Virus record (IMG/VR): IMGVR_UViG_3300030380_001708
Location: 1 to 31,588 of that record
Direction: 5' to 3' (one strand)
Length of the DNA: 31,588 bases
From: a virus
Part shown: positions 1 to 31,588 of the stretch, piece by piece
How the letters are laid out: each line of letters opens with the position of its first letter
Numbering within the stretch: position 1 is the first letter of the stretch
Made by a program: the position numbers and the translations under genes
The notes under the pieces: generated by a model
Databases searched by the model: none
What the model saw: only the letters and a program-made list of their open reading frames with translations
What the model was told of the DNA's origin: nothing

Positions 1-671
1 TCTTCTGTTGGTGCTAATGTTATAGTAGTGGTAGCACCACTATCATAAGTAACTAAAGCATTATCTATTGATGTAGTACTTGTGTATTGAGCATATTGTA
101 TTTTTTGATTTGAATTACCATTATCATTAAATGAATCTGTTTCATTAACAGTCGCACCTGTGCGCCATTGAACAGAAGTGACTCTTTCTGCATTTACAGG
201 TATTGTTAATGTGCCATTTAAATCATACTGTAAATAAGTACCACTTATCATTGCGGTTGGTTCTACTGCGTAGTTTACATTATCTTTAAATTTGTTATAA
301 CCTTCTTGCGCTAAATAAGTGTTTGATGTTACTGAACCTATTAAAGTGCCATCTGATTCTCTTGCTGATGTGCTTACTGTTACCCATACAGAAGCTTTAT
401 CAGAAGATGCAGAATAAGAGCCATTAAATATTTGTTCTATCTGGTCGTTTACTATTTCACTAATGTCTACAGTTACAGAAACTTCTGCTCCTAATGGTTT
501 CTTTTGTAATTGATATGAAACTGATAAATCATCACAAGGTGTAGAAACACTTGAGCCATCAAATATGCCAATAGTAATTTGAAAGTAACTTAAATTTGCT
601 ATATTGGTTGAACCCGTTACTTGTGGTGTTCTTATAAAAAAAGGGCTTCTTGTTCTAATTATTGTACTCAT
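1..671 (-). CDS. Large phage tail protein, N-terminal part (cut by the left edge)
   Basis: ATG at 671-669 overlaps the TGA of the upstream gp10-like gene (ATGA), and the frame stays open for 223 codons to base 1, so the gene is cut by the window edge. The protein starts MSTIIRTRSPFFIRTP and is rich in Thr, Ser and Asn with beta-type periodicity, with stretches such as YLAQEGYNKFKD and NQKIQYAQY. I recognise this N-terminus as a type common in Bacteroidota phages, where it belongs to a large tail or tail-tip protein of unknown biochemical role. Position after the tail chaperone and tail completion genes fits a tail component. It is absent from automatic calls because no stop is in the window. 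Direct joining of the two window ends does not keep the frame with the right-edge gene. Tail role is inferred from context. Confidence 0.75.
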   Translation of the reverse strand, partial: MSTIIRTRSPFFIRTPQVTGSTNIANLSYFQITIGIFDGSSVSTPCDDLSVSYQLQKKPLGAEVSVTVDISEIVNDQIEQIFNGSYSASSDKASVWVTVSTSARESDGTLIGSVTSNTYLAQEGYNKFKDNVNYAVEPTAMISGTYLQYDLNGTLTIPVNAERVTSVQWRTGATVNETDSFNDNGNSNQKIQYAQYTSTTSIDNALVTYDSGATTTITLAPTE

Positions 672-1219: not shown

Positions 1220-1674
1220 TAGCAATATGTCATTTCATCAGTTGTATTAATATCAAAAGTTATTGCCCATCCTGCCAAACTGTTTTCAAACCTTTCTGTA
1301 AATGGTTCACAGCTTGGGGGATTGTTTAATTCAAATTGTTCTTTGTATAAACTGTTTTTTTGTAGCACTCTAATTATTCTAGTGCCTAATGCCATTTGAG
1401 TGTTAAGTACATCCTGTATATTGTTATTGCCTAGAAATAAATCGTTAACTGCTTCTTTATTAAAATCAACAATATCCATAAGGAATAATGTTACGTTAAA
1501 TGCTACGTGGTTTTCGTTTATTGTAGCATTATTAATCATTAAATGTGCTAATGGAAATATGCTTTGTTTGTTTAAATCAATGTCGCTTATATCTCCAAAA
1601 CTTATATTGTTGTTAAATGGTTCAGCAGTTACTACTGTTTTAATACTGTCTAATATGTTGTAAAAACTTTTCAT
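1219..1674 (-). CDS. Tail terminator-like protein (hypothetical)
   Basis: A 151-aa protein with ATG at 1674-1672 overlapping the upstream stop as ATGA. The N-terminus MKSFYNILDSIKTVV is an amphipathic helix and is followed by beta-rich sequence with NEN-H-V-F-V-LFLMDIVDFN, a layout seen in tail terminator/tail completion proteins (helix, then a sheet that packs on the tail end). I do not see a diagnostic motif, so the function is inferred from size and from position directly before the gp10-like gene and after the chaperone. It ends with a run of polar residues (TTDEMTYC). Alternative: a neck protein. Confidence 0.5.
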   Translation of the reverse strand: MKSFYNILDSIKTVVTAEPFNNNISFGDISDIDLNKQSIFPLAHLMINNATINENHVAFNVTLFLMDIVDFNKEAVNDLFLGNNNIQDVLNTQMALGTRIIRVLQKNSLYKEQFELNNPPSCEPFTERFENSLAGWAITFDINTTDEMTYC

Positions 1675-1922
1675 AAATATTTAATAAATATTGGAGTCTT
1701 ATCTCCAAAGTCTAACTCTGTTAATTCGTCTAATGTGTCTTTAGCTGTGTCAAAGTCCATATTCATTTTTTTTAATAGAATATCAAGGCATTTAAAATAA
1801 TCTAGTACAAACTGTTTTTTATTTGTAGTTATAGCAACAGTTGCTTCTTCTAAACCTTGAGCAATTATTAAATTCTCCAAATCGTTTTCAAAAATTATAT
1901 CTAATAATTTGTCTCTTGTCAT
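1671..1922 (-). CDS. Small acidic protein of the tail module, unknown function
   Basis: An 83-aa acidic, mainly helical protein; ATG at 1922-1920. Its start overlaps the stop of the -1 frameshift extension of the tail chaperone (TGA at 1921-1919) in an ATGA arrangement, and its own stop overlaps the next start in the same way. It contains FENDLENLIIAQGLEEATVAI and DTAKDTLDELTELDF. No domain recognised. The strict coupling on both sides says it is co-translated with the tail assembly genes, so a tail assembly or tail structural role is a reasonable guess. Confidence 0.6.
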   Translation of the reverse strand: MTRDKLLDIIFENDLENLIIAQGLEEATVAITTNKKQFVLDYFKCLDILLKKMNMDFDTAKDTLDELTELDFGDKTPIFIKYL

Positions 1923-2655
1923 TTGTTCTTTTTGAGCATTTTCGCTTCTAGTTCGTATTTGTCTTTTTCAAATGCTAAGTGGTTCAAACAGGTGTGTATA
2001 TTTAGTTTAGTAACATTATCTAACCTTTCTATATTCCCATTGCATAAGGAATAGATAGATTGATACCAACCCCATTTAACAGCGAAACCCGCAGTTGCGG
2101 AGAGATTTCCACTTCCGTTTGTGTCGCTAAATAGCTCAGGATATTTTTCTGCAATTCCTTGTTTAAAGTCAAAAAAAAAGTCATTGCTCCAAATACAATA
2201 TCAAGTGGCATCTGTTTCATATTTGCATTTTCTTTAGCTTCATATTCCTCTATTAAATATTTATTCTTTTTCTTGTATGTTATTGGTCTAAATAAAACAT
2301 TCATAGCAATGTGCATTTGTTCCCATTCAGTTAGCAAATTATCTAAGTCAACATACTCGCCCAATGTCATATTATTTAAATCGGGTATAAAACCATATTC
2401 AACACCACTTAATGTAAACCTATCCTTAAAAGGAGATTCTTCCTTAAACAGCTTTAAAATGTCATTTACTATCGTATCAGCATCAGTTGCTTTAATAGCA
2501 GTAACAGTTTTTAGTGGAATATTGCAAAATATTTCAATCAACTTTTGCTGTAAGAAATTATCCATTTCTTTTTTATCAGCTATTTTCAACCATTGCTGAT
2601 ATTGGTTTAAAGTAATATCGTTTAATGATGTTGGGATGTTAATACTTACTTTCAT
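1919..2655 (-). CDS. Tail assembly chaperone, -1 frameshifted long product (about 245 aa)
   Basis: The minus strand reads ACT TTT TTT TTG in the zero frame at 2181-2170, so U UUU UUU is a canonical slippery heptamer in the right phase. After slipping, the -1 frame reads FFF-DFKQGIAEKYPELFSD and then AVKWGWYQSIYSLC, NIERLDNVTKLNIHTCL and FEKDKYELEAKM, ending KKNK at TGA 1921-1919. The WGWYQSIY...G(D/N)I.R.D.VTKL pattern is, from memory, a conserved C-terminal region in Bacteroidota phage tail proteins. The -1 frame has a stop (TGA) eight codons before the T run and no ATG, GTG or TTG between that stop and the conserved segment, so independent initiation is unlikely. Its stop overlaps the next ATG (ATGA), as elsewhere in the operon. 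The alternative is a sequencing error in the homopolymer. Confidence 0.7.
2029..2655 (-). CDS. Tail assembly chaperone, short (zero-frame) product
   Basis: A 208-aa protein with ATG at 2655-2653. Mostly helical, with an N-terminal NQYQQWLKIADKKEMDNF segment and a central EWEQMHIAMNVLFRPITYKK segment. It sits between the large terminase and the small tail proteins. In tailed phages the gene before the tape measure/tail tip set usually codes for a chaperone made in two forms by frameshifting (lambda G and GT are the model). The zero frame passes the T9 run at 2179-2171 as Thr159-Phe-Phe-Leu162 and ends in SIPYAMGI. Both this frame and the -1 frame are open over 2171-2029, and the -1 frame closes the gap to the next gene exactly. 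Chaperone role is inferred from position, helical content and the frameshift. Confidence 0.65.
   Translation of the reverse strand: MKVSINIPTSLNDITLNQYQQWLKIADKKEMDNFLQQKLIEIFCNIPLKTVTAIKATDADTIVNDILKLFKEESPFKDRFTLSGVEYGFIPDLNNMTLGEYVDLDNLLTEWEQMHIAMNVLFRPITYKKKNKYLIEEYEAKENANMKQMPLDIVFGAMTFFLTLNKELQKNILSYLATQTEVEISPQLRVSLLNGVGINLSIPYAMGI
2171..2179 (-). promoter_or_regulatory. Programmed -1 frameshift slippery site (T9 on the minus strand)
   Basis: Nine consecutive T on the minus strand. With the zero frame ACT-TTT-TTT-TTG, both P-site and A-site tRNAs re-pair perfectly after a one-base slip. Downstream structure was not evaluated. This is the only such run in the window where both frames are open and meaningful on the 3' side. 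Confidence 0.65.
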
Positions 2656-3948: not shown

Positions 3949-4273
3949 CGTAAGTTAAGTTTGGAAATAAGCGTGGTTCTTCATTAACAGTAATGTCTTT
4001 ACTTTCTTTTGGTTTACCATAAACTGAGTTCATTAAAGCATCATATGCTCTGACATCACCTTGCCTTGCTTTTTTTAAAACTGCTAGTGTCATTATATCT
4101 TCCTGAGTTAAATCTTCATACAAACCAGTTATCGGGTTTTTAGATTTCTCTAATGTTTCTAACCATCGTTTTGCTATACTGCTTCTGCTAAATGCTCCAA
4201 CTGGTCTGCCTAATGGATTACCGCTTTGTCCTTTTTTAAATTGATGCTTTTTTATATTTTCTTCGTTTGCCAT
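3938..4273 (-). CDS. Terminase small subunit-like protein (DUF5681-type)
   Basis: A 111-aa protein that starts with FKKGQSGNPLGRPVGAFS, the hallmark of the DUF5681 family often found directly before large terminase genes in phages and prophages. The C-terminal half is helical (EDIMTLAVLKKARQGDVRAYDALMNSVYGKP), consistent with an oligomerising DNA-recognition subunit. The ATG at 4273-4271 overlaps the stop of the ABC-ATPase/GNAT gene (TAATG). Small terminase role is inferred from family and position; the protein would recognise the packaging site and load the genome on the large subunit. Confidence 0.7.
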   Translation of the reverse strand: MANEENIKKHQFKKGQSGNPLGRPVGAFSRSSIAKRWLETLEKSKNPITGLYEDLTQEDIMTLAVLKKARQGDVRAYDALMNSVYGKPKESKDITVNEEPRLFPNLTYDDI

Positions 4274-5385
4274 TATTGTTTATATTCAAAATTATACGTC
4301 TTAACTCCTTTTTCTCTAAATCCTTTTTTTCTTAACATATTACGTCCAATAGTCAATTTTCCCATTGTTCTTTTAAAACCTAAATATTTCCAACATTCTT
4401 GTTTTATCATTGCTTTATAAACTGGTGCAGAACTAAATTTTGCCATTATGCGACAAGTTATTTTTTTAGATAATAATTTACTTGTTTCATTTATTAATTT
4501 TATTCCTAATCCCATTCCAGTATAATCTGGATGTATTACAGTTCTATTTGAATGATAAATAATTTTAGTTCCTTTTTTGTGTGGTGTATAATTAGCAAAA
4601 CATTGAAAACCTATTTGATTGTTATTATGAAATAAACCATATAAATATATTTTACCGCCCGGCAATCGTTCATTTAAATAATGATACTTGCTAAAGTATT
4701 TCCAACTTGTTCTGTCAATTTCTTTAATTTCAAATTTGAGTTGTTCCCGTTTTGTAAAAAAAAAATCTTCCGACTTTGGAAGTGTAAATTTTTGTTTGTT
4801 ACAATCAATCATCCAATCAGGATGTAACCACTCCAAAACATCTTGATGACAAGAACACAATATTATTTTTTTATTATTACGTTTAGCGTATTTATGTAAA
4901 CATAATGACATAGCTTTGGCAACAGTTCTATCCACAACTGATGTCCATTCATCTATAAAAACAATATCGTCTGATTTAGTCATTAAATAAACTGCTTCGG
5001 CTCTTGCTCTTTGTCCATTTGATAGAGTTTTAACAGGTCTTATCCAACAAGGAACAGAATTTAAACCAATACCATTTAACATTCTAGCACATTCTTCATA
5101 AGACATTTTTTTTGGTAATTGATTTATAATCGGCTCATCTTCATTTAATTTTACATCAAATATTTTATCTCCAAATAAATGTTTTATCATTGTTGTTTTG
5201 CCACTTCCACTATTGCCATAAACTAAACCAATATTCCATTCATTAGGTATTTTAATATTGTTAACTTTTAAATGATGAATTGATTTTTTTTCGACATCAA
5301 TATCTAAACTATTAGCAGCAACTTGGCATCTAAATTCTTTGTTAACATTTGATTTTAATATTACTTCAATATCGTTTGGTATCAT
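4273..5385 (-). CDS. ABC-type ATPase fused to a GNAT acetyltransferase domain (COG2401-like)
   Basis: A 370-aa two-domain protein. Residues about 1-205 are an ABC ATPase: Walker A GNSGSGKTT (57-65), signature LSNGQ (121-125), Walker B IVFIDEW (141-147) with catalytic Glu146, and an H-loop-like His180 in CSCH. It has no membrane segment, so it is not a transporter subunit. Residues about 220-345 look like a GNAT domain, with HYL at 235-237 and the acetyl-CoA loop HPDYTGMGLG at 285-294. This is the architecture of COG2401 (ABC ATPase fused to a predicted acetyltransferase). Phage Mu Mom, which hypermodifies adenine, also has a GNAT fold. The gene follows ParB by an ATGA overlap and precedes the small terminase, so a role in DNA marking, protection or packaging is plausible. 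Substrate unknown. Confidence 0.85.
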   Translation of the reverse strand: MIPNDIEVILKSNVNKEFRCQVAANSLDIDVEKKSIHHLKVNNIKIPNEWNIGLVYGNSGSGKTTMIKHLFGDKIFDVKLNEDEPIINQLPKKMSYEECARMLNGIGLNSVPCWIRPVKTLSNGQRARAEAVYLMTKSDDIVFIDEWTSVVDRTVAKAMSLCLHKYAKRNNKKIILCSCHQDVLEWLHPDWMIDCNKQKFTLPKSEDFFFTKREQLKFEIKEIDRTSWKYFSKYHYLNERLPGGKIYLYGLFHNNNQIGFQCFANYTPHKKGTKIIYHSNRTVIHPDYTGMGLGIKLINETSKLLSKKITCRIMAKFSSAPVYKAMIKQECWKYLGFKRTMGKLTIGRNMLRKKGFREKGVKTYNFEYKQ

Positions 5386-5885
5386 TGTACTATTTTAATA
5401 TTTAAATTTTCTAATTTTAATTTTTCGTACCATTCTTGAGCTTTTTCTTCCGATTCAAATTCTATATTTAAAAACCATAAATCGTTTTCAATTTCGTGTT
5501 CTTTGTCATCATCATAATGAAATTCTGGAACAGTTAAACCCCAGTCATTTAGTTCTTTGTTATCCCATTCATTGGCTAACATATCCCAATCCCATTCACC
5601 AAAACCAACATTGTCTTTTATTATGAATTCTCGCTGTTCTTTCGCTGATAATTCGCTTGCTTTAACTACATAAACTTCTTTCAATCCAGCTTCTTTACAA
5701 GCCTTTAAACGCATATTACCACCCAGCACAATCATATCATCATTCACAACGATTGGGCGTAGTTCTAACATCTTAGGAAATTCTTTAATTGAGTTAACTA
5801 ATTTCTTAAACTTAATGTCTTTAATTAGCCTTGGGTTATCTGGATTAGCCTTGACCTTTGATATTTTAATTAATTCACTTTTCAC
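5382..5885 (-). CDS. ParB/Srx-fold nuclease-like protein
   Basis: A 167-aa protein with an N-terminal ParB-like domain: ANPDNPRLI at 13-21, ELRPIVVNDDMIVLGGNMR at about 41-59 (the GGNMR replaces the usual GE/GHRR) and an AKEQREFIIKDN helix at about 81-92. The acidic C-terminus has no HTH, so it is not a full partition protein; stand-alone domains of this kind in phages are usually linked to DNA methylases or other DNA-modifying enzymes. Start is GTG at 5885-5883 overlapping the previous stop (GTGA), and its end overlaps the ATPase/GNAT start (ATGA), so the two are translated together. ParB-fold CTP or ATP use and DNA binding are family knowledge, not visible here. Confidence 0.8.
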   Translation of the reverse strand: MKSELIKISKVKANPDNPRLIKDIKFKKLVNSIKEFPKMLELRPIVVNDDMIVLGGNMRLKACKEAGLKEVYVVKASELSAKEQREFIIKDNVGFGEWDWDMLANEWDNKELNDWGLTVPEFHYDDDKEHEIENDLWFLNIEFESEEKAQEWYEKLKLENLNIKIVQ

Positions 5886-21751: not shown

Positions 21752-23530
21752 TTAATTTTTCTTTTTTGGTCTTGGGCTTTTATAACCCTTATTAGGCATT
21801 TTAAATGGCGCAGTTGAAACTAATTCATCATTGGTTTCATATCTTGCAGCATCTCTTTCTCCATCTTTTATAGGCAAAGCAGTAATCATTCTACGTGCTT
21901 GACCAACACTGATTTTTTTATTGTTTTTTCTTAAATAAATATTACGAACCCAAGTATGGTGACAATTAGCACCCCCCTTGTATAACCAGATATTATACTT
22001 GCTTTCCCCTTTAGGTGCTAATTCAGTATTAGCAGCACTTTGTTTGTCTAAATCTTCTTTACGATAAACCTTATTGGCTTTAACCATTTTCTCGCAAAAC
22101 CTTCTACTATTTTCGCCAGTTACAGGCGGATAATATTTGTATCTAATTTTAAATAAAGAAGTATCTTGTTCGCTTACCTTTTTTGGAGTTGATTTTACTA
22201 CTGTTGACCTAGTAGCCATAGCAAATTTAAAATGACTTAATATATTGTCTTCATCGTCTGTTGCTTCTTGACTGTGTAATAGCTCATATTCTTGCATTTC
22301 TTCATCTTCGCCTAAAGCAATTAAATCATCAGCTAACTTGTCTAATTCTTCATCTGAAACATCGTGAAAACAAACTTTATTTAATTCAGTTTCTTCTTCT
22401 TCCTTAACTCCAGTTTCTTCTTCTTTTACTTCATCATTATTAATGTCATCAACATCAATGTCCATAAAATCTAATGGGTCTAATGTTTTAAAATAAAGGT
22501 TTAATGCTATGTTATTTGTGCTTAATATCTCGTCTAAGCAACTTATAATTAAATCCTGATAAGGTTTTATAGTTGTATTGCTAAAAAGTCTTTGAGCGTT
22601 CTGTATTTCGTCTGCATTATTTCCTAAACCATTGTTACCATCACGTAAACCAATTAATAAAGGCGATGTAATACGATGTGTTAGCATTATTTTTCTACTA
22701 CATTCTTCACTTAAGTAACTATAATGCTCAGGAGCGTTGTTTAAGGGTATGTCATCAACTGTAGTTTTTTGTTCAGCATTGTGATTAAAAGCAATAATGA
22801 CTTTTTCACCGAAACCACCAGTTAATTTTCCCATTACTTGGTTTTTAATTTCGTGCTGTTTCTCGGATGACGGAATACCGCTATTAAAATTGATAACCTT
22901 AGTACCTGAAAAAGAATTTTGAGCATCGTTTATTAAATAGTCTGCTATTTCGGATTCCAGTTTAGGATAAGCTAAACAATAGTCGGCAGGACTGTAATAG
23001 TAATAACCAGTTACATATCTTTTAATTACGTATATTTCGTTTTTAGCACCACTTCCAAAAACAGGTATCTTTTTTAGTTCAGTATTTTGGGTTACTTTAC
23101 TCCAATCAGCAGAATAATAATAGTTTTTTATTTCACCCTTATTATCCATTTTTTCAGCACGTAACGTTTCTCTAGGAAAATGTGAAATATTACTGATTTT
23201 TTTACCTGTATAACTAATTTGCAATGATGCTTCACCCAACATTTTTAAATCCAAACAAATTTTACGCATACAACTGTCTTTAAGCAGTTCTTTCATTTGT
23301 GCAAATTGTTCGGGCTTTTCATTACTGTCAGTAGCTTCTAAACCCCTACCAAATATTTGTTGAGATATACCATTTATAACACTTTGATTTGTTGTGCTAT
23401 TCATATAGCTGTCAATCAGTTCTTGATAATACCCATTACCGTCACCAATGCCTACCCAATCCCTGTTTTTATCTTCAGTTATTATAGGTGCTTCGTATTG
23501 ATTTAATTGTATTAAATGTAAATTATCCAC
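21752..23530 (-). CDS. Portal protein with fused C-terminal domain
   Basis: About 592 residues from GTG 23530-23528 (MDNLHLIQLNQYEAPIITED); an ATG at 23578 gives 16 more residues but overlaps the previous gene by 56 bases, whereas the GTG overlaps by 8. WVGIGDGNGYYQELIDSYMN and NSTTNQSVINGISQQIFGRGL are typical of portal N-termini. SPLLIGLRDGNNGLGNNADE is the portal 'R-D-G-N-GLG' region. After an acidic linker (about 375-440) a C-terminal domain begins at KIRYKYYPPVTGENSRRFCE, with NIWLYKGGANCHHTW and a basic tail. The dodecameric portal is the DNA gate of the capsid; the C-terminal extension is typical in Bacteroidota phages but of unknown role. Confidence 0.8.
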   Translation of the reverse strand: MDNLHLIQLNQYEAPIITEDKNRDWVGIGDGNGYYQELIDSYMNSTTNQSVINGISQQIFGRGLEATDSNEKPEQFAQMKELLKDSCMRKICLDLKMLGEASLQISYTGKKISNISHFPRETLRAEKMDNKGEIKNYYYSADWSKVTQNTELKKIPVFGSGAKNEIYVIKRYVTGYYYYSPADYCLAYPKLESEIADYLINDAQNSFSGTKVINFNSGIPSSEKQHEIKNQVMGKLTGGFGEKVIIAFNHNAEQKTTVDDIPLNNAPEHYSYLSEECSRKIMLTHRITSPLLIGLRDGNNGLGNNADEIQNAQRLFSNTTIKPYQDLIISCLDEILSTNNIALNLYFKTLDPLDFMDIDVDDINNDEVKEEETGVKEEEETELNKVCFHDVSDEELDKLADDLIALGEDEEMQEYELLHSQEATDDEDNILSHFKFAMATRSTVVKSTPKKVSEQDTSLFKIRYKYYPPVTGENSRRFCEKMVKANKVYRKEDLDKQSAANTELAPKGESKYNIWLYKGGANCHHTWVRNIYLRKNNKKISVGQARRMITALPIKDGERDAARYETNDELVSTAPFKMPNKGYKSPRPKKKN

Positions 23531-23876
23531 TATAGTATAAATATTCGTTAGCACCAGTATTGTGCTCTGTGTAAACATTGTTTGTTATTACATAGCTACT
23601 GGCATTTTGGTTAGTACAAAAAATCTTGTCTTTAAAAATGATGGTATTGTCAGTTGTGTTTTTAATTTCTAAGTTGTAAAAACTATCAGAAACTAAATTT
23701 TGACTTGTTGCATAAGTAGAGTAGTAGTCATTGCTACCAAAAGTTGGTGTGCTGTCAGTTAAAATGACTTTATTTTTATTTTCTGATGTTAAAGTAAGTT
23801 GATAATTTTTAGTAGCTACAATATCTTCTCTAGCTATAAAATTGATTGTCCCTCCTGTTGTACTCAATACTTGCAT
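23523..23876 (-). CDS. Small beta-rich structural protein, hypothetical
   Basis: A 117-aa protein. The ATG at 23876-23874 is the true start; an upstream ATG at 23921 would fall inside the terminator hairpin and add a non-native MDGFILSTFFF. It reads MQVLSTTGGTINFIARED, then beta strands with YYSTYATSQNLVSDSFYNLE and IFKDKIFCTNQNASSYVI. A similar short beta protein precedes portal-type genes in several Bacteroidota phages (from memory). Function unknown; a decoration or adaptor protein is plausible. Overlaps the portal gene by 8 bases. Confidence 0.6.
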   Translation of the reverse strand: MQVLSTTGGTINFIAREDIVATKNYQLTLTSENKNKVILTDSTPTFGSNDYYSTYATSQNLVSDSFYNLEIKNTTDNTIIFKDKIFCTNQNASSYVITNNVYTEHNTGANEYLYYSG

Positions 23877-23888
23877 TTTTAAAATTTT

Positions 23889-23922
23889 AAAAAAAAAGGT
23901 GGATAAAATAAATCCATCCACC
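23889..23922 (-). terminator. Intrinsic terminator after the tail-tube-like gene
   Basis: On the minus strand GGTGGAT (23922-23916) pairs with ATCCACC (23904-23898), loop of 11 bases, followed by nine T (23897-23889). Strong hairpin plus U tract. It separates the capsid set from portal and connector genes, so the downstream genes need read-through or an own promoter. Confidence 0.85.
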
Positions 23923-23973
23923 CTTTCTACACCCTGTATTATGTTACTTTAAACACAACACCCACTAAACATC

Positions 23974-24528
23974 TTAACTGTTTGTTCCAGCAGTAGTAGT
24001 CACTGTTCCACTAAACACGCTAGAATCAGCAAATGGGTTACCAGCAACAGCGCCACTTATAAAATTAGCTGGCATTACTTCTTGTCCACTAAATGTCAAA
24101 GTGTAACCGCTCATATCGCCCATAGCAGTTCCCGTAGCAATTGTTCCACCACTAACGGACATCCCGTGTTCTCTACCGCATAAAAAAGCATTTCCATTAT
24201 AGTCTTCTACGATAATTTGAGGTCTTCCGTATGCAAGTAACTTTAATTCCTTATGGTCTTCTTTATATAATTTTTGAAGATTTAAAGTCAAAGTTTGCTC
24301 GAAAAAAGTTGTTCCATTTTCAGGAGAACTTGTAATTGCTTGTTCTAAACTGTTACCACCTTTTAATTCGTAAACAAAAGCTGTAAAACTTGCCGTACAG
24401 GCAGTTACTTCATCATTTGTTAATTCTAAACCGCTTATTGTGCCGAAGTCGCTGATATATACTCTAGCGATGCCTCCGACAACATCTTTACACGGTACAT
24501 TTCTTCCTTTAGTCGCTAAACACGCCAT
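23974..24528 (-). CDS. Tail tube-like / structural protein
   Basis: A 184-aa protein: MACLATKGRNVPCKDVVGGI, ARVYISDFGTISGLELTNDE, ELKGGNSLEQAITSSPENGT, QTLTLNLQKLYKEDHKEL, LLAYGRPQIIVEDYNGNAF and SGGTIATGTAMGDMSGYTLT. The order (GGI start, 'LKG-NS-EQ', 'ENGT-FFEQTL-L-L', 'GRP--IVED-NGN', 'TGTAMGD-SGYTL-F') is that of a frequent Bacteroidota phage structural protein that I consider a tail-tube-type protein on the basis of beta pattern and position after the major capsid protein. The last gene before a strong terminator. Confidence 0.6.
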   Translation of the reverse strand: MACLATKGRNVPCKDVVGGIARVYISDFGTISGLELTNDEVTACTASFTAFVYELKGGNSLEQAITSSPENGTTFFEQTLTLNLQKLYKEDHKELKLLAYGRPQIIVEDYNGNAFLCGREHGMSVSGGTIATGTAMGDMSGYTLTFSGQEVMPANFISGAVAGNPFADSSVFSGTVTTTAGTNS

Positions 24529-24554
24529 AGTATTTTAATTTTTAAGGTTAATAA

Positions 24555-25493
24555 TTAAGCGTGATACAATACAATCTCTGAACCAATTGCATATTGTACT
24601 CCACTTGTATATCTCATTACTACTCTAAAATTCTGACTTCCGTCAATTGGGCTCATGTCAATAACTTTAGCTTCGTTCATATCATTTAATAAACCAGTAC
24701 CAAAGAATAAATTAGATTTTTGAGTAGCCATTGCTGTATCGTCAGCTAATCCATTAGCAACAAATAATTTTACTCCATCAAAAGATAAATCTCCACTACC
24801 GTTATACCATTGAGTTCCTTTTGCATCAGTACCAGCAGCTCCAATACCACTTGAAAAACCACCAAGAGCTCTTACGTACGCTCTCGCAATATTTTGACTG
24901 ATATATACAAACATATCATCCTTGTTGTATAATTTAGATGGTATAGCATCTACAATAGAACCTAATTTTGCGATTACATTTGAAGCATCTACAGCAGCGT
25001 GTGAAGCAACGTCAATCACATCACTATCTGCTAAAGCTAAAGTTACTAAACCATCGAACTCGCCATCGTTAGAATTGACACCTTCCCAAATATTTTGTTC
25101 TGTTTTTTCTTTTATTAAACCACCAACGTGACCTAAAACAAAATCTACAAATGACTTTGGTGGGTTCTTATAAGCAGACATTCCTAATTCTATCGCTTCC
25201 CAAGTAGGAACAAAATCTTTTTTACAAAACTGTAAGTTACTTTGAAATTCTTCTGGTTGTAAAATTCTTTCAGTTAGAGTAACAGTTGAAGTTGCATCGA
25301 AATCACAGCTCCCGTTTTTAATTACATTAGCATCAGTAGCAATTTTTTGCATTACTTGCTTGTATCTAATGTTTTGTCTTACTTCTATACCACCCTTAGC
25401 AATAGTGTTTCCTTCTAAAAGAGCAGCAGCCAAATAACCTTTTGCAGCTTCTCCTGCGTAAGTTGGACTTGTTATTGTTAATGTTGTAGCCAT
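24555..25493 (-). CDS. Major capsid protein (HK97-like, predicted)
   Basis: A 312-aa protein, the right size for a processed HK97-type capsid protein. It lies after the protease and scaffold genes. Features: N-terminal TSPTYAGEAAKGYLAAALLE, LPEEF-like LQPEEFQSNLQFCKKDF, VPTWEAIELGMSAYK, FVLGHVGGLIKEKTEQNIWE, and the C-terminal SQNFRVVMRYTSGVQYAIGS plus 'IVLYHA', the typical strand at the end of HK97 folds. Abundant product expected. ATG at 25493-25491 with an A-rich leader. Confidence 0.8.
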   Translation of the reverse strand: MATTLTITSPTYAGEAAKGYLAAALLEGNTIAKGGIEVRQNIRYKQVMQKIATDANVIKNGSCDFDATSTVTLTERILQPEEFQSNLQFCKKDFVPTWEAIELGMSAYKNPPKSFVDFVLGHVGGLIKEKTEQNIWEGVNSNDGEFDGLVTLALADSDVIDVASHAAVDASNVIAKLGSIVDAIPSKLYNKDDMFVYISQNIARAYVRALGGFSSGIGAAGTDAKGTQWYNGSGDLSFDGVKLFVANGLADDTAMATQKSNLFFGTGLLNDMNEAKVIDMSPIDGSQNFRVVMRYTSGVQYAIGSEIVLYHA

Positions 25494-25516
25494 TTTGTTT
25501 TTTTTATTTTTTGATT

Positions 25517-26134
25517 TTAATTATTGTTAATTCTTGCATAAATTCTATCCATTGCTGTATCAACGTTTTTTGATGATATATGGAACTCAAATTTTTGCTT
25601 TTCTTCTGCTTCAGGATTGTGTACTAATGGCTCAGTGGGTTCAGCAGACAATTCTTCTTTGTTTTCTGAAATAGGTTCTTCTTGCATTTTTTCTTTGTCT
25701 TTGTAACCCATTTTTTCAATCATTGCTTTGATTTCTTCAACCGCTTTAGCAAATTCTTGTTTGGTTACATACTGCATTTCTTCTTCTTCTAGTTCAGTTT
25801 CTTCAGTGCTTTCTTCGCTAGTTTCTTCTGCACTAGCTTCAACTTCTTCTTCTACTTTTTCTTCAACTTCTTCCTTTACTTCTCCAATGCTTTCAATTAA
25901 TCCTTCTTCTTTAACAACTAATTCTCTGCCATCTTCTAAAGAATATTTTCCGATAGGTAAAGCAATTTCTTCATCTTCGGATTTTATAAATACAGAAGCA
26001 CCAGACTCAAATTTTTCGGCTACTATAATAGTACCGTTGTCTAGTTTAACTTCTTCTAATTTTACTGCTGTGTCTTCAGATAGTTTGACACCAACAATTT
26101 CTTTGATTTGATTGAGTATACTTTGCGCTTTCAT
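25517..26134 (-). CDS. Scaffold-like protein
   Basis: A 205-aa acidic protein. N-terminal part (MKAQSILNQIKEIVGVKLSE, KLDNGTIIVAEKFESGASVF) contains beta strands and 'ALPIGKYSLEDGRELVVKEE'. The middle is a Glu-rich low-complexity region (about 90-122) followed by a coiled coil (TKQEFAKAVEEIKAMIEKMG), then a disordered region and a conserved end 'DTAMDRIYARINN'. This is the make-up of phage scaffolding proteins, between protease and major capsid genes. Preceded by CGTCTATA and an intergenic terminator upstream, so a separate late promoter is likely. Confidence 0.65.
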   Translation of the reverse strand: MKAQSILNQIKEIVGVKLSEDTAVKLEEVKLDNGTIIVAEKFESGASVFIKSEDEEIALPIGKYSLEDGRELVVKEEGLIESIGEVKEEVEEKVEEEVEASAEETSEESTEETELEEEEMQYVTKQEFAKAVEEIKAMIEKMGYKDKEKMQEEPISENKEELSAEPTEPLVHNPEAEEKQKFEFHISSKNVDTAMDRIYARINNN

Positions 26135-26138
26135 ACCC

Positions 26139-26146
26139 TATAGACG
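26139..26146 (-). promoter_or_regulatory. Shared leader element CGTCTATA before the scaffold gene
   Basis: CGTCTATA on the minus strand lies four bases before ATGAAAG, in the same arrangement as before the tail chaperone (2660-2667). It is just downstream of a terminator at 26179-26210, so transcription of the scaffold-capsid operon probably starts in this 45-base interval. I see no TTTG/TAnnTTTG pair here, which suits a phage-type rather than host-type promoter. Confidence 0.4.
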
Positions 26147-26178
26147 GACAGAACGCAATTATTATGTAGTAACTATTT

Positions 26179-26210
26179 AAAAAAAAAAGCCACTTAATAA
26201 AAAGTAGCTT
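26179..26210 (-). terminator. Intrinsic terminator before the scaffold-capsid operon
   Basis: On the minus strand AAGCTACTT (26210-26202) pairs with AAGTGGCTT (26195-26187; one G-U pair), loop of 6 bases, followed by ten T (26188-26179). It ends transcription from the tape measure/protease block. The 12-base palindrome TTGAATATTCAA lies at 26253-26264, upstream of it. Confidence 0.85.
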
Positions 26211-26286
26211 TAATTTGAATGACTGCTTGGTGTTTTTCCATTGAGCCATTTCGTTGAATATTCAATAATTAAATATACTAATAATT

Positions 26287-26439
26287 TTACACTTTACCTA
26301 TTCCTTGCGCTTGTAAAGTACCATCGCAGCAGTCCACGTGATAAGTAGCATCACTACACAAACAAGCTCTTTTACCTCCAACTCTAGATATTTTGCTAAC
26401 TGTAGCATCTTTCCTCCTTTTATTTATTTTCTTTTTCAT
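26287..26439 (-). CDS. Small Cys-rich basic protein (50 aa)
   Basis: MKKKINKRRKDATVSKISRV then GGKRACLCSDATYHVDCCDG and TLQAQGIGKV. Start overlaps the 3' end of the protease gene by 20 bases. Four cysteines (C-x-C and CC) and the pattern 'GGKRACLC-D-TY---CCDG-LQAQGIG' are familiar from small genes in phages of Bacteroidota, where they have no known function. Could be a zinc-binding or minor structural protein. The last gene before the terminator at 26179-26210; a sub-100-codon gene that automatic callers miss. Confidence 0.7.
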   Translation of the reverse strand: MKKKINKRRKDATVSKISRVGGKRACLCSDATYHVDCCDGTLQAQGIGKV

Positions 26440-27634
26440 ATTTTATTTTTACGCAGTTAGGTCTTCTTTTACCATTTATCATTTTATAGCCTTTTTGTTG
26501 GTAACCATCCCAACAAGGGCTTTTACTATTTTTACCAGCATCAATTTGATGTTTTTCGCAAGGCATATACCAAATTTTTCCTTCAAATTCGTGTTCGTGC
26601 ATTCCTTCACAACCTATGTTTTTAGCCATCTCTAATGCTTTTTCTTTTGTACTATATGCTAATCTGTCATCAATAATTGCAAAGTATTCATCCACAACTA
26701 CAGATTCTAAGTTAATTTCACCTAATTGTTTTAACTTGCTTCTACTCCAAGACAGACCAGCTTTTCCACCCCATAATAAATAACTAATCGTTCCGCACGC
26801 TTTAGTATCACTAGGGTCGTAGTATGTTTCTGCTCTAGATAAATAACTATACATACGTTTAATTGTTGGCACAGTCAGTTTTCTTTTCGCTGACAAGTCA
26901 GCACTCCTTATTTTTCCTACGTCCGTAGCACATTTATTATTTACTTTTTCATTAAGCTCTCGACCTCTTTTAGCATTATTGCTAACTGACTTTGGGTAAT
27001 CATTATAACTTTCTAATGTTATTTTTTCGTTTGTTAATACGTTTTTAACTTGACTGAGTATGTATTCCGCTTCTGTGTTTTCAATAGCAGTCATTTCATC
27101 TTTAACACTATCTCTGCTAATTTTAGCTCGGTCAGCAAAGTAACCCTCTATACTAAAGCCTTTAACCTTATTTTCTTTTACATATTCTTCCCAGACTTCT
27201 TCATTATTAACTTTCATTGATATCATCCACGTACCATTTGGAACATTTAAACCATACATAGTTGATTTATCCATTTTGTTATCTTCTACAATCCAGCTTT
27301 CTACAACTGTCAGCCCTTTAACTTCCATATCGTGTTCCAAGGTAGCATTGTTTTGATTACCATTTTGAAAGAACATCTCACTAGCTCTACGCACAGTATC
27401 TTTTGAAAAGTATACATAAAAGTCAGTATCGTTTCGCTTTCGGTAGATAGGTTTGTTGGGTATCAAGGCAGCACCCATTAAAAGTTTCTTTTCTTCATCT
27501 ATTTTTGCCAATTGTACTTCTTCACTAGCCAAAGCAATAAAGTCGCTTTCAATGGCTGGGTTTTCAACGATAGAAACAGCTTCAATTCCTGTCATTTCTT
27601 CGTTTTCGTCTAATATAAGTTCTATTATTTCCAT
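26420..27634 (-). CDS. Prohead protease (XkdF-like) fused to additional domains
   Basis: A 404-aa protein. Residues about 1-175: XkdF/Peptidase_S78_2-type maturation protease with GAALIPNKPIYR, LEHDMEVKG (candidate catalytic His101) and VKGFSIEGYF (Ser161). A second domain at about 210-305 (YPKSVSNNAKRGRELNEK, VGKIRSADLSAK, RMYSYLSRAETYYDPSD, CGTISYLLWGGKAGLSW) is an accessory domain found in other phage structural proteins. The C-terminal part (330-400) has cysteines and histidines (C342, H346, H348, C359, H362) and the 'SPCWDGYQQKGYK---G-R-PNCV' tail. The protease would cleave scaffold and itself during prohead maturation; the extra domains may target it to the shell. Fused layout larger than a simple protease. 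Confidence 0.8.
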   Translation of the reverse strand: MEIIELILDENEEMTGIEAVSIVENPAIESDFIALASEEVQLAKIDEEKKLLMGAALIPNKPIYRKRNDTDFYVYFSKDTVRRASEMFFQNGNQNNATLEHDMEVKGLTVVESWIVEDNKMDKSTMYGLNVPNGTWMISMKVNNEEVWEEYVKENKVKGFSIEGYFADRAKISRDSVKDEMTAIENTEAEYILSQVKNVLTNEKITLESYNDYPKSVSNNAKRGRELNEKVNNKCATDVGKIRSADLSAKRKLTVPTIKRMYSYLSRAETYYDPSDTKACGTISYLLWGGKAGLSWSRSKLKQLGEINLESVVVDEYFAIIDDRLAYSTKEKALEMAKNIGCEGMHEHEFEGKIWYMPCEKHQIDAGKNSKSPCWDGYQQKGYKMINGKRRPNCVKIKYEKENK

Positions 27635-27644
27635 TTTATTTTAT

Positions 27645-30041
27645 TTAAAAAGTTGCTTGTTGTATTGTATTGTTTTGTAGCTGTTGTGCTGTGGTTACAT
27701 CTCCAGCCACCACGAACGCTTGTACTGGTTGTTGTTGCCCTAATGCTCCAGCAATTTGGTTAAAACCCGACTGCCCAACCACGTTAAAAGATGGCGGTTG
27801 TGTTGCAGCATTTAAACTTCCCCCACCAGTATCGTCTGTTGTCGTTGGTTTAGCACCCCCACCAGAATCAAATCTTGTTGCAGATATTGTTGCTATTTGA
27901 GCAGCACCAGCCAATGCCATTGCAGCAGCAGCAGCGTAGTTTGTAAATGTTAAACTTTTTACTGGATGACTTAATTCATTGACAATACCTCTAGCTGTGT
28001 TAATTGTTGCCTGTGCTATACCAATAGCTTTATTTATTTTAAATGCTTTCTTTGCCCTTTCTTTATCTCCCTGAGCAAAAGCATCAGCAATTTGCCCAAT
28101 AGAACTTAAAGCATCTAAAGCAAAATCAACTTTAGCATTATTCAGGGCTCTATTTCTTTCAAATTCTTCATTTTCTCTAATAACATCATCACGAGTTGTT
28201 TCGTCTTTAATTTTTTTAATATTTCTTGAAACTAAATCTTCTGCGCCAGTTCTTATTTCTATTTTTTGTGCTTCTCTCGCTTGCAACTTTGGCATTTCTT
28301 CAAAGTCCATTTTTTCAATATCAAACTTGACTGTTCTTAAATTTTGCAGTTCTTTTATTTCAGCTTGTATTGCTTTAACTTTTTCATTTCTAACAGCTAA
28401 TTCTTTTCTTGTTGTAGCTTCAGTATCTAGTATTGCTTTTAGTTCTGCTTCTTTTAACTTTATTAAATCCCTAGTTGCTTTTTCTTCTTCTTCTAAACCA
28501 TCAATATTAGCATCTGATTTAATTTTATTGCTTTCTGCTAACTCTCTATCAATTCTTTCTTGTTCTTTTTGTTTTAATCTGTTTAAAGTTCTTTCAAAAA
28601 GGTTGCCTTCTTCTGCTCGTTTCTTACTTATATCAGCCCAGTATTTAGCATCCTCATTTGCTTTTGCTAATGCTTGGTTTAATGCTTCTCTATCTCTAGC
28701 AAGTTTTTCTTTATCAATTGCTTTGCCTATAAATGGAATGTCAGCAATAGTTTCTTTAAAATTTAAAAAAGAACTTTGAATATTCCTTAAAGCATTTTTA
28801 ATTCCTGTTTTTAAAACTGCGATTGAAACACCAGCAGTTTCTCTTATTTCTTTAAAAAACGCTCCTGTTGCTTTACTAACAAAAGTTAATGTAGATACAA
28901 TACTGGTTAGCCCTTGAACAAAACCCCTAGCAATGTTAGAAAAAATTCCTTCGCCATCTTCAACAGATAATAAAAAGCCTTCCCAAGCTGAACCAAGTTT
29001 TGTAGTATCACCATCTAAATTATCTAATCTAGTTTCAGCAATACCAGCAGCAGCACCTAAACCATTAAAAGCATCTGTAGCGCCATTTAGTTCAGTTAAT
29101 AGTTTACCAGTTGCTTCCGCATTTTCTGCTAAGGTTATAGCTACACCAGCACCACGCTTGTCAAATAAATCTAGGGCAACAACATTTTTATCCGTTGCAT
29201 TGTTAATTTTTGCAAATGCTTCTTCCATTGTTAACCCTTCTTGAGCTAATGTCAAAAATATATTTCTAAGTGCTGTTCCTGATGTTGAAGCATCGAAACC
29301 AGAATTGGCTAAAGTTCCCAACATTGCAGTAGTTTCTGATAGTGATACATTTGCTGTTTTAGCAATGGGGGCAACAGTAGTTAAAGCAGTATTTAATTTA
29401 TTAAAATCTAATGCAGAAGATGAAGTCGATTGAGCTAATATGTCAATAACTTCTTTAGAATCAGTTGCCTCTAAACCAAAAGCTCTTAAAGTAGAACCAG
29501 TAAAAGCAGCAGCTTCCCCTAAACTAATACCCATTGAAGATGCTAAATTCAAAGTGGCTTCACTCATGTCTAATATATCTGCTGTTGGGAATCCTAATTT
29601 TGCTAATTCTGTTTGTAATGATGCTACTTCCATAGCAGTAAATTCAGTAGAACTTCCTAATTCTTTTGCGCTACTTGCTAAAGCATTCATTTCTTTTTCT
29701 GTTGCGCCTGTAACCGCTTTTAAACCTGACATTGATTTAGCGAACTCTGAACCTTTTTTAGTAGCTGAAATAAATAAACCTACCAATGAACCAGCAGCAA
29801 CCACCAATGCACCAATACCTGTTGAAACTAAAGCAACTTTTAATGTTTGTAAACCGCCAACAATTCTTTGTATTGATGCTGGCATAACCCCTAAAGTATT
29901 ATTTAAACCACTAAAAGATTTATTTGCAGTATTACCAGTTTTAACAACTTGTTTTTCAGTTTTATCTAATGCCTTGTCAATTTTTTTAATTGCTGGCGTT
30001 GCTTTGTCTTTTACTCTTATTTCTAAAATCTTAGTTTCCAT
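27645..30041 (-). CDS. Tail tape measure protein (TP901 type)
   Basis: A 798-aa protein. N-terminal coiled region, a hydrophobic segment GIGALVVAAGSLVGLFISAT (about 77-96), then the TP901 core with TEFTAMEVASLQTELAKLGF, SSALDFNKLNTALTTVAPIA, TTAMLGTLANSGFDAS and ALRNIFLTLA (about 100-330). A coiled-coil part follows (about 470-610) and a Gly/Ala-rich segment near 700-740, then a Gln-rich end (VTTAQQLQNNTIQQ). The length of tape measure proteins sets tail length, so a mid-sized siphovirus-like tail is expected. ATG overlaps the 47-aa gene by 11 bases. Confidence 0.93.
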   Translation of the reverse strand: METKILEIRVKDKATPAIKKIDKALDKTEKQVVKTGNTANKSFSGLNNTLGVMPASIQRIVGGLQTLKVALVSTGIGALVVAAGSLVGLFISATKKGSEFAKSMSGLKAVTGATEKEMNALASSAKELGSSTEFTAMEVASLQTELAKLGFPTADILDMSEATLNLASSMGISLGEAAAFTGSTLRAFGLEATDSKEVIDILAQSTSSSALDFNKLNTALTTVAPIAKTANVSLSETTAMLGTLANSGFDASTSGTALRNIFLTLAQEGLTMEEAFAKINNATDKNVVALDLFDKRGAGVAITLAENAEATGKLLTELNGATDAFNGLGAAAGIAETRLDNLDGDTTKLGSAWEGFLLSVEDGEGIFSNIARGFVQGLTSIVSTLTFVSKATGAFFKEIRETAGVSIAVLKTGIKNALRNIQSSFLNFKETIADIPFIGKAIDKEKLARDREALNQALAKANEDAKYWADISKKRAEEGNLFERTLNRLKQKEQERIDRELAESNKIKSDANIDGLEEEEKATRDLIKLKEAELKAILDTEATTRKELAVRNEKVKAIQAEIKELQNLRTVKFDIEKMDFEEMPKLQAREAQKIEIRTGAEDLVSRNIKKIKDETTRDDVIRENEEFERNRALNNAKVDFALDALSSIGQIADAFAQGDKERAKKAFKINKAIGIAQATINTARGIVNELSHPVKSLTFTNYAAAAAMALAGAAQIATISATRFDSGGGAKPTTTDDTGGGSLNAATQPPSFNVVGQSGFNQIAGALGQQQPVQAFVVAGDVTTAQQLQNNTIQQATF

Positions 30042-30174
30042 ACTTCATTCTAATTTGCTGTATTCCTTCTTTAAATGTCATTGGTATTTTATTTTGTCCT
30101 AATGCTATTTTAATATGTTTATCATATAGTTTATTGTCTTTACAAAATTCTAATGCTTCTAATATTGTTTTCAT
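30031..30174 (-). CDS. Small protein upstream of tape measure (47 aa)
   Basis: MKTILEALEFCKDNKLYDKH, then IKIALGQNKIPMTFKEGIQQ and IRMKYGN. Start ATG overlaps the stop of the tail protein (ATGA at 30174-30171) and the end overlaps the tape measure start. The helical sequence and place resemble small adapter genes near tape measures, but no family is recognised. Exact coupling is the main support. Confidence 0.6.
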   Translation of the reverse strand: MKTILEALEFCKDNKLYDKHIKIALGQNKIPMTFKEGIQQIRMKYGN

Positions 30175-31588
30175 GATGGCTCGTTTAGTAGTTCAAAATT
30201 CGTTTCTCCTGATTGTAGCTTAGTAGACATTTTATTTATTGTATAAGCTCTTGTGCCAACTACAATCAAATCATCTAATGTTAAATTCAATAACACTTTA
30301 AGTGGTAGTATTGCATTGAACTTAAATATTCTTGTTCTTTTGTTAAATACTCTTGTAATGTAATTAGTATAATAAGTTTGAAATAAGCTGTTATTATCAC
30401 CACCATAATCTGTTAAAGTGTAGGTATTTATTTCACTGCCAAAGTTTAAGTTATATAATGGTGGTACAGATGTTCTTCCTAACGTATTGCAAACACTTGG
30501 TATCCAATAATCATCTAAAGAGTGATTTGTTCCTGTTGGACATAAAGCAGCATAGGTTTCTGGTCTTGTACTTTCTAAGAAGTTAATTGATGTAGAAACA
30601 TTTTGCTGATAGATAGCATAAAATAAAAGCGGTTGTCCTATACTTGGTTCTAAATTATCATCTAAGAAACTACCAACTTGTACTGTAGATAATGCTCCAC
30701 TTGTTTTGTCTTGCAATCTTTCAAATAACATATGTTCAAATGGTAATGTTATTTTATACTCCTTCTTTTTAGTAGTATCACCTATATAGTTTAACTCACC
30801 ATATCTTCTATTGTTCATACTTAAAAAAGTTTGAGCCAATATGCTTTTAGGTTCACTATATTCTAAATCTACATTTGAAAATGGTAGTGCTTCACTTACT
30901 GTATGCTCATCAGTTTTAACAAATTCTGTAATATTAAAAGTATCACCACCAGCATAATAGTTATCTAAAGTTCTAACTACTATTTCATCATTAAAATCTA
31001 CATAAGCAGTTAGGTTGAATGCTCTAAACAAACCATTTAAGAAATCCTTAACTTTTATTTCTGGTATTTGCTCTGTAATTATTATTGATGCAGTTGTAAC
31101 AATGCTTGATGAAACACTTTGATAATTAGCAGTTAATAATAAATTTCTACCAAGTAAAACTGTGTCATAAAAACTATGTGTAAGCGATAATACCACAGTA
31201 AATGAAATAGCAACTTCACTCCTTACTCTTGCATACAACCTTTTAGATTCACCTGTTTGCAGTGTATTAGTTTGATTAAATCCATAACCTATTGAAAAAG
31301 AATTAGTACCTACTAAATTTGTTGCTGTTGCTTCTACAGTATCTGTTAAATCATCTACTATTTCTATTGTGTAAGGTTCTGATGAAGTTGTTATTATTTG
31401 CACACTAAAACCAAACCCTTCTTCCATTGGTGTAGGTGGTGATGCACTTGATGAATTTAATTGTGTTAAAGCATAAACACCATCATCAAATTGAACTGAA
31501 TCATAAGTAACACCATCATAGTGTGTACAATTAGCTCCTGAATTACAATTAAAAGAAGTGTTTTTTATTTCAACAAATAAATCTCCTG
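30171..31588 (-). CDS. Tail protein, C-terminal part (cut by the right edge)
   Basis: The visible 471 residues come from a frame that is open to base 31588; the ATG at 31427 is internal, since the upstream codons (FVEIKNTSFNCNSGANCTHY, QFDDGVYALTQL) read like the same protein. Beta-rich with IPEIKVKDFLNGLFRAFNLT, FNDEIVVRTLDNYYAGGDTF, KITLPFEHMLFERLQD and a C-terminal RIFKFNAILPLKVLLNLTLD, LIVVGTRAYTINKMSTKLQS, ETNFELLNEPS. The order resembles tail-tip/hub or distal tail proteins of this phage group. Together with the left-edge gene it would form the tail tip genes of one module. Confidence 0.7.
   Translation of the reverse strand, partial: GDLFVEIKNTSFNCNSGANCTHYDGVTYDSVQFDDGVYALTQLNSSSASPPTPMEEGFGFSVQIITTSSEPYTIEIVDDLTDTVEATATNLVGTNSFSIGYGFNQTNTLQTGESKRLYARVRSEVAISFTVVLSLTHSFYDTVLLGRNLLLTANYQSVSSSIVTTASIIITEQIPEIKVKDFLNGLFRAFNLTAYVDFNDEIVVRTLDNYYAGGDTFNITEFVKTDEHTVSEALPFSNVDLEYSEPKSILAQTFLSMNNRRYGELNYIGDTTKKKEYKITLPFEHMLFERLQDKTSGALSTVQVGSFLDDNLEPSIGQPLLFYAIYQQNVSTSINFLESTRPETYAALCPTGTNHSLDDYWIPSVCNTLGRTSVPPLYNLNFGSEINTYTLTDYGGDNNSLFQTYYTNYITRVFNKRTRIFKFNAILPLKVLLNLTLDDLIVVGTRAYTINKMSTKLQSGETNFELLNEPS

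Follow-up and report, generated by a model that had tools for sequence, protein, structure and literature searches.

Predicted −1 recoding at a conserved T9/T10 run in a family of marine phage genes resembling lambda G/GT

Among the closest known systems is the gene of phage lambda, with counterparts in P2 and HK97, in which a −1 shift at a G GGA AAG-type heptamer yields the extended protein gpGT in addition to the short gpG. The combination of a short and an extended product is the hallmark of the G/GT tail chaperones (PMC5009743), and virion proteins of two lengths can likewise arise via frameshift, as is the case for SPP1 gp17.1 and its longer form (PMC8718954). A second group of described systems depends on the RNA polymerase: the threshold for transcriptional slippage in bacteria is usually a run of nine T or A, and in Shigella mxiE insertion at a U run joins two reading frames (PMC1088944). 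The stretch of DNA analysed here (the window) is a virus record of 31,588 bases, whose minus strand carries a gene with two overlapping frames immediately behind the large terminase gene. Like lambda gpG/gpGT, this gene would specify a short and a −1 extended product, but it has no detectable sequence similarity to them, its slip run is T9 or T10, and it is placed directly after the terminase with several genes before the tape measure. With the 9A/9T slippage genes (Shigella mxiE, IS elements and Thermus dnaX) it shares the uninterrupted run of nine, and with mxiE also an extended product obtainable through one inserted base, whereas here a perfect ribosomal heptamer also lies inside the run and slippage in the RNA is a candidate mechanism. 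Nonlabens (Persicivirga) phages P12024L (genes 40/41) and P12024S (genes 38/39) carry a homologous gene with T9 and both frames, with the terminase before it and the tape measure downstream; it is about 30% identical, and there it is annotated as two separate hypothetical proteins with the frameshift not noted. The gene is of a known kind but belongs to a family that is new and unannotated, present in marine Flavobacteriia-type phages including Nonlabens P12024S/L; its homopolymer slip site is unusually strict, and its position is unusual as well. Taken as a whole, an account in which programmed −1 recoding, ribosomal or by the polymerase, produces a G/GT-like chaperone pair appears fairly likely.

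Slip site and overlapping reading frames in the window

Near the 3' end of the zero-frame ORF (2655–2029) the sequence reads ATG ACT TTT TTT TTG, and the following features were assigned around it.

2029–2655, minus strand: zero-frame ORF encoding the short product of 208 aa; the N-terminal domain up to the slip site is common to both products (homologues; AlphaFold2 pLDDT 80.8)
2171–2179, minus strand: T9 slip run with the in-phase heptamer T TTT TTT (2179–2173); T9 or T10 in every scored relative
2032–2172, minus strand: 141 bases with dual coding (reading frames and phase of substitutions)
1919–2172, minus strand: −1 extension past the slip, 84 codons plus TGA, predicted to give a long product of about 245 aa; kept in about 315 loci, pN/pS 0.11–0.26 in close pairs
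2051–2074, minus strand: WGWYQSIY segment in the −1 frame, which holds no start codon upstream of it (sequence)
1671–1922, minus strand: next ORF, 83 aa, whose ATG overlaps the −1 stop (ATGA; sequence)

The initial annotation had described a T9 run at 2179–2171 with U UUU UUU in phase, followed by about 140 bases open in two frames, and both its coordinates and its phase were confirmed on the minus strand, the overlap amounting to 141 bases (2172–2032). The zero frame terminates at TAG (2031–2029) and the −1 frame at TGA (1921–1919), which overlaps the ATG at 1922–1920 as had been proposed; also as proposed, 106 bases (2028–1923) form a gap if the −1 frame is left unread. After the slip the −1 frame translates as FDFKQGIAEKYPELFSDTNGSGNLSATAGFAVKWGWYQSIYSLCNGNIERLDNVTKLNIHTCLNHLAFEKDKYELEAKMLKKNK, and, in agreement with the claim that the WGWYQSIY segment has no usable start, neither ATG, GTG nor TTG was found upstream of it in the −1 frame of the window. 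Members of the window's own clade (L002, L003 and L321) have the 83-aa ORF that follows, but L004–L010 lack it, and in them a homologue of the 151-aa gene directly follows the frameshift gene.

By itself, a T9 run is unremarkable in this AT-rich record. Eight pattern matches to T9-type runs, at six sites, were counted in the window against a mean of 15.75 in dinucleotide shuffles, and the rarity of T9 was dropped as an argument, the window holding fewer such runs than the shuffles; T9/T10 runs also occur elsewhere in the relatives. The phase of the heptamer says little either, because every T9 run includes an in-phase T TTT TTT. As T9 is not rare in the window, the case rests on the comparison with relatives, and what stands above chance there is conservation: a T9 or T10 run with both frames open was present in every scored relative.

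Conservation and selection in both frames

Relatives were gathered with three types of query, namely the zero-frame protein, the −1 segment alone and diverged −1 segments. Among the first 80 loci, found via the −1 segment, all 80 had T9 in the same phase behind a long upstream zero frame, with a −1 frame of 85–88 codons and a zero frame running on for 49–64 codons. In the enlarged set of 301 automatically scored sites, which comprise 239 different surrounding sequences and fall into 81 clusters at 80% identity, 209 had T9 and 92 had T10, and shorter, longer or interrupted runs were found at 0 of the 301, with pairwise protein identity down to 19%. Loci missed by the scoring script, including L011 and L012, proved on checking to have T9 or T10 as well, and two loci that had been automatically misassigned (L109 and L151) had T9 and T10, respectively, when inspected by hand. 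Altogether, an uninterrupted T9/T10, an open upstream zero frame and a −1 extension with the WxWY segment were shared by about 315 related loci, a number that counts loci rather than independent phages, a few contigs having been entered twice under different locus numbers. The same arrangement was found in two bacterial genome contigs, labelled Bacteroidetes and Flavobacteriaceae, and, with the same site, in the isolated viruses Nonlabens P12024L/S. No relative had T8, and in the T10 relatives differing flanking codons leave the zero and −1 frames unchanged; a version of the protein encoded in a single frame, which would have spoken against the initial annotation, was found in none of the roughly 315 loci. 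One 33.6 kb record (G019, the source of L123) contains near its ends two diverged copies of the whole gene (L322 and L323), each with its own T9, which result from a duplication or else from two phages having been joined in the assembly.

Alignment of both frames with those of related phages, as the initial annotation had suggested, showed both to be under selection. In close pairs, pN/pS for the −1 frame was 0.19–0.26 in the overlap and 0.11–0.18 in the tail read only in the −1 frame, and the overlap read in the zero frame gave 0.7–0.8, an average that masks a split along the overlap. When changes were counted by codon position on a tree of 71 unique sequences, those in −1 codons 16–27 (about 2095–2134) fell most often on zero-frame position 3 and less often on the other two positions, the pattern typical of coding in the zero frame; from −1 codon 33 onward the pattern was that of −1 coding, and −1 codons 3–15 evolved slowly both at positions synonymous in the zero frame and at those synonymous in the −1 frame. 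Between codons 16–31 and 33–47 the phase distributions differed with p about 1e-14, an approximate value in which changes are treated as independent. This split indicates that both about 30 zero-frame tail residues past the slip and the −1 domain are selected; the remaining zero-frame tail varies in length and has no visible constraint. Openness of the zero frame is in itself weak evidence: in synonymous shuffles of the −1 codons it stayed open that long in 1–37% of cases.

Two alternatives would do without recoding. Homopolymers are prone to errors, and the T run could be a sequencing or assembly error in what is truly a single-frame gene; hundreds of independent contigs and the genomes of two isolates have identical frames, and zero-frame selection continues past the run, which refutes this idea and leaves it a negligible probability. 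Alternatively, the −1 frame could be an independent gene translated from a start of its own, which is how the Nonlabens phages are annotated; this would agree with the −1-frame ATG that P12024L/S have shortly before KWGWY, but the window has no start codon upstream of WGWYQSIY, the conserved −1 residues extend right to the run and the first codon past the slip is usually TTA or TTT, so that we regard it as highly improbable. The conservation of T9/T10, the lack of any single-frame relative and the selection on both frames together make it close to certain that the gene is recoded by a programmed −1 shift to give a short and a longer product, supporting the programmed shift at the T run (T9/T10 in 301/301 scored loci) that the initial annotation had put forward. 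Both products are very probably functional. In hundreds of marine phage contigs this one gene is at present split in annotation (phrog_32199 and phrog_38404).

Mechanism of the shift and nature of the products

We propose that most translation would keep to the zero frame and yield the 208-aa protein, and that some would shift by −1 to give a protein of about 245 aa, the first ~161 residues being common to both and followed in the longer one by a different helical C-terminal domain with WGWYQSIY. The shift may come about when ribosomes slip in tandem on U UUU UUU or, alternatively, through polymerase slippage at the same run. By analogy with lambda gpG/gpGT, the common part would hold the tape-measure protein and the −1 domain would recruit subunits of the tail tube. 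Stimulatory RNA structures are common at −1 recoding sites and not essential. A check for such a structure, which had been recommended, turned up no conserved one: the window fold had z = −0.44, and no shared fold was seen by eye across 21 sequences.

A shift that is chiefly ribosomal is modestly preferred. In the other mechanism, RNA polymerase would add one U at T9/T10 and ordinary translation would then read the −1 frame; ribosomal and polymerase slippage give identical trans-frame residues, and the trans-frame peptide would therefore be the same either way. Several features of the run fit the polymerase. It always has 9 or 10 T and never 7–8, although 7 make the heptamer, and in two clades that lack the flanking T on one side the other side restores nine (ACT TTT TTT TTG and TTT TTT TTT CTG). 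Moreover, a T-to-C change at the last base of the heptamer, which in 56 clusters would alter neither protein and leave the valid ribosomal heptamer U UUU UUC, was never seen, compared with TTC making up 23% of the upstream Phe codons. Nine T or A is also the usual slippage threshold in bacteria, an insertion in a run of U links two frames in mxiE (PMC1088944), and a conserved uninterrupted run of at least nine, by which 9A/9T transcriptional slippage is recognised, was present in all 301 scored loci (209 T9 and 92 T10). On the other hand, most of the flanking Ts are dictated by the hydrophobic or aromatic residues that the neighbouring codons specify, U UUU UUU may shift better than U UUU UUC, and the T9/T10 runs elsewhere in the window and in relatives indicate that such runs are tolerated. 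Weighing these points, we consider polymerase slippage possible but distinctly the less probable of the two, and the small share that remains falls to both acting together or to another mechanism. Of what had been called a canonical −1 frameshift, the −1 recoding therefore stands and its ribosomal nature is only somewhat probable, polymerase slippage at T9 predicting the same products. A broader version, in which polymerase slippage on the length-locked T9/T10, and not ribosomal frameshifting, sets the ratio of the two tail-assembly proteins in this widespread marine phage lineage and the gene is kept apart from the tape-measure gene, seems unlikely. Because the length of T9/T10 is so strict, the run offers a direct way to tell the two kinds of slippage apart in a phage assembly gene.

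Whichever way the shift occurs, the short-plus-extended design within the virion block is the G/GT hallmark (PMC5009743), which makes a chaperone role the best inference, and by this analogy the gene is likely to encode a tail-assembly chaperone pair comparable to gpG/gpGT. Within the virion block it shares its strand with the tail genes and is located upstream of both these and the tape measure. Searches of Pfam, PHROG and PDB sequences gave no match to a known tail chaperone, and in PHROGs the two frames sit as separate families without function. A fold search of BFVD with the zero-frame model, which is of fair quality, returned 35 confident matches, all to phage proteins and almost all of these uncharacterised, as well as weak matches to proteins annotated as tail assembly chaperone and as tail assembly protein (E 0.016 and 0.18); the PDB fold search with this model gave nothing. 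The model of the −1 domain is helical and of low confidence (pTM 0.40), and its fold search found only nameless relatives. Flavobacterium phage 6H, the source of a weak fold match (R9VW65, 191 aa; probably gp10, judged from its length), was rejected as a further example, as neither a slip run in phase nor a conserved −1 segment was found in it. With real recoding, the gene could instead specify, in two lengths, some other protein of the virion or of its assembly, for example a scaffold-like factor or one that joins head and tail: it directly follows the terminase, stands several genes away from the tape measure and has no homology to chaperone families, and virion proteins of two lengths made by frameshift do exist, e.g. 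SPP1 gp17.1 and its longer form (PMC8718954). However, the known two-length cases add a surface domain such as FN3, and here the addition is a short domain predicted to be helical; in size and layout the gene agrees with G/GT, and the weak fold matches name tail assembly proteins, so that a non-chaperone role appears rather improbable. Returning to the tail-assembly chaperone, as neither adjacency to the tape measure nor sequence similarity is seen, we file the gene as working like G/GT and not as a proven member. Accordingly, of the label tail chaperone gene given initially, the G/GT-like layout of a short and a −1 extended product is supported by the sequence, and the chaperone identity is no more than likely, the gene having no homology to a known family and no adjacent tape measure. 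If it is a true tail chaperone, the G/GT scheme reaches phages with a rearranged virion gene block, and the gene would be a marker for such phages.

Genome context

Wherever both genes were located, the tape-measure gene lay about 4–6.5 kb downstream of the frameshift gene, and in no case was it adjacent; in P12024L the tape measure is a 686-aa gene, assigned via its sequence and matches to it and not via annotation. The closest relative with a more complete record has, in this order, the terminase, the frameshift gene, genes of 83, 151, 194, 385 and 740 aa, and the tape measure. A second frameshift candidate was looked for directly upstream of the tape measure in the window and in P12024L and none was found, the window having only a small single-frame ORF there. 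This ORF, of about 46 aa, is located at 30042–30170 in the window and has an equivalent in Nonlabens P12024L (L094, 30918–31058).

The order of the virion genes is unusual: terminase, frameshift gene, tail genes and tape measure are followed by a protease, a capsid candidate and the portal (window 21752–30041). The ends of the window (1–671 and 30171–31588) fall inside two adjacent tail genes, and comparison with the close relative L321 shows about 1.3 kb to be absent between bases 1 and 31588; the record is therefore a circular or permuted genome with a gap and not complete. Just upstream of the terminase genes, the region 4273–5885 encodes a 370-aa ATPase plus acetyltransferase-like protein with a weak match to Mom-like DNA modification, and also contains a ParB-like protein.
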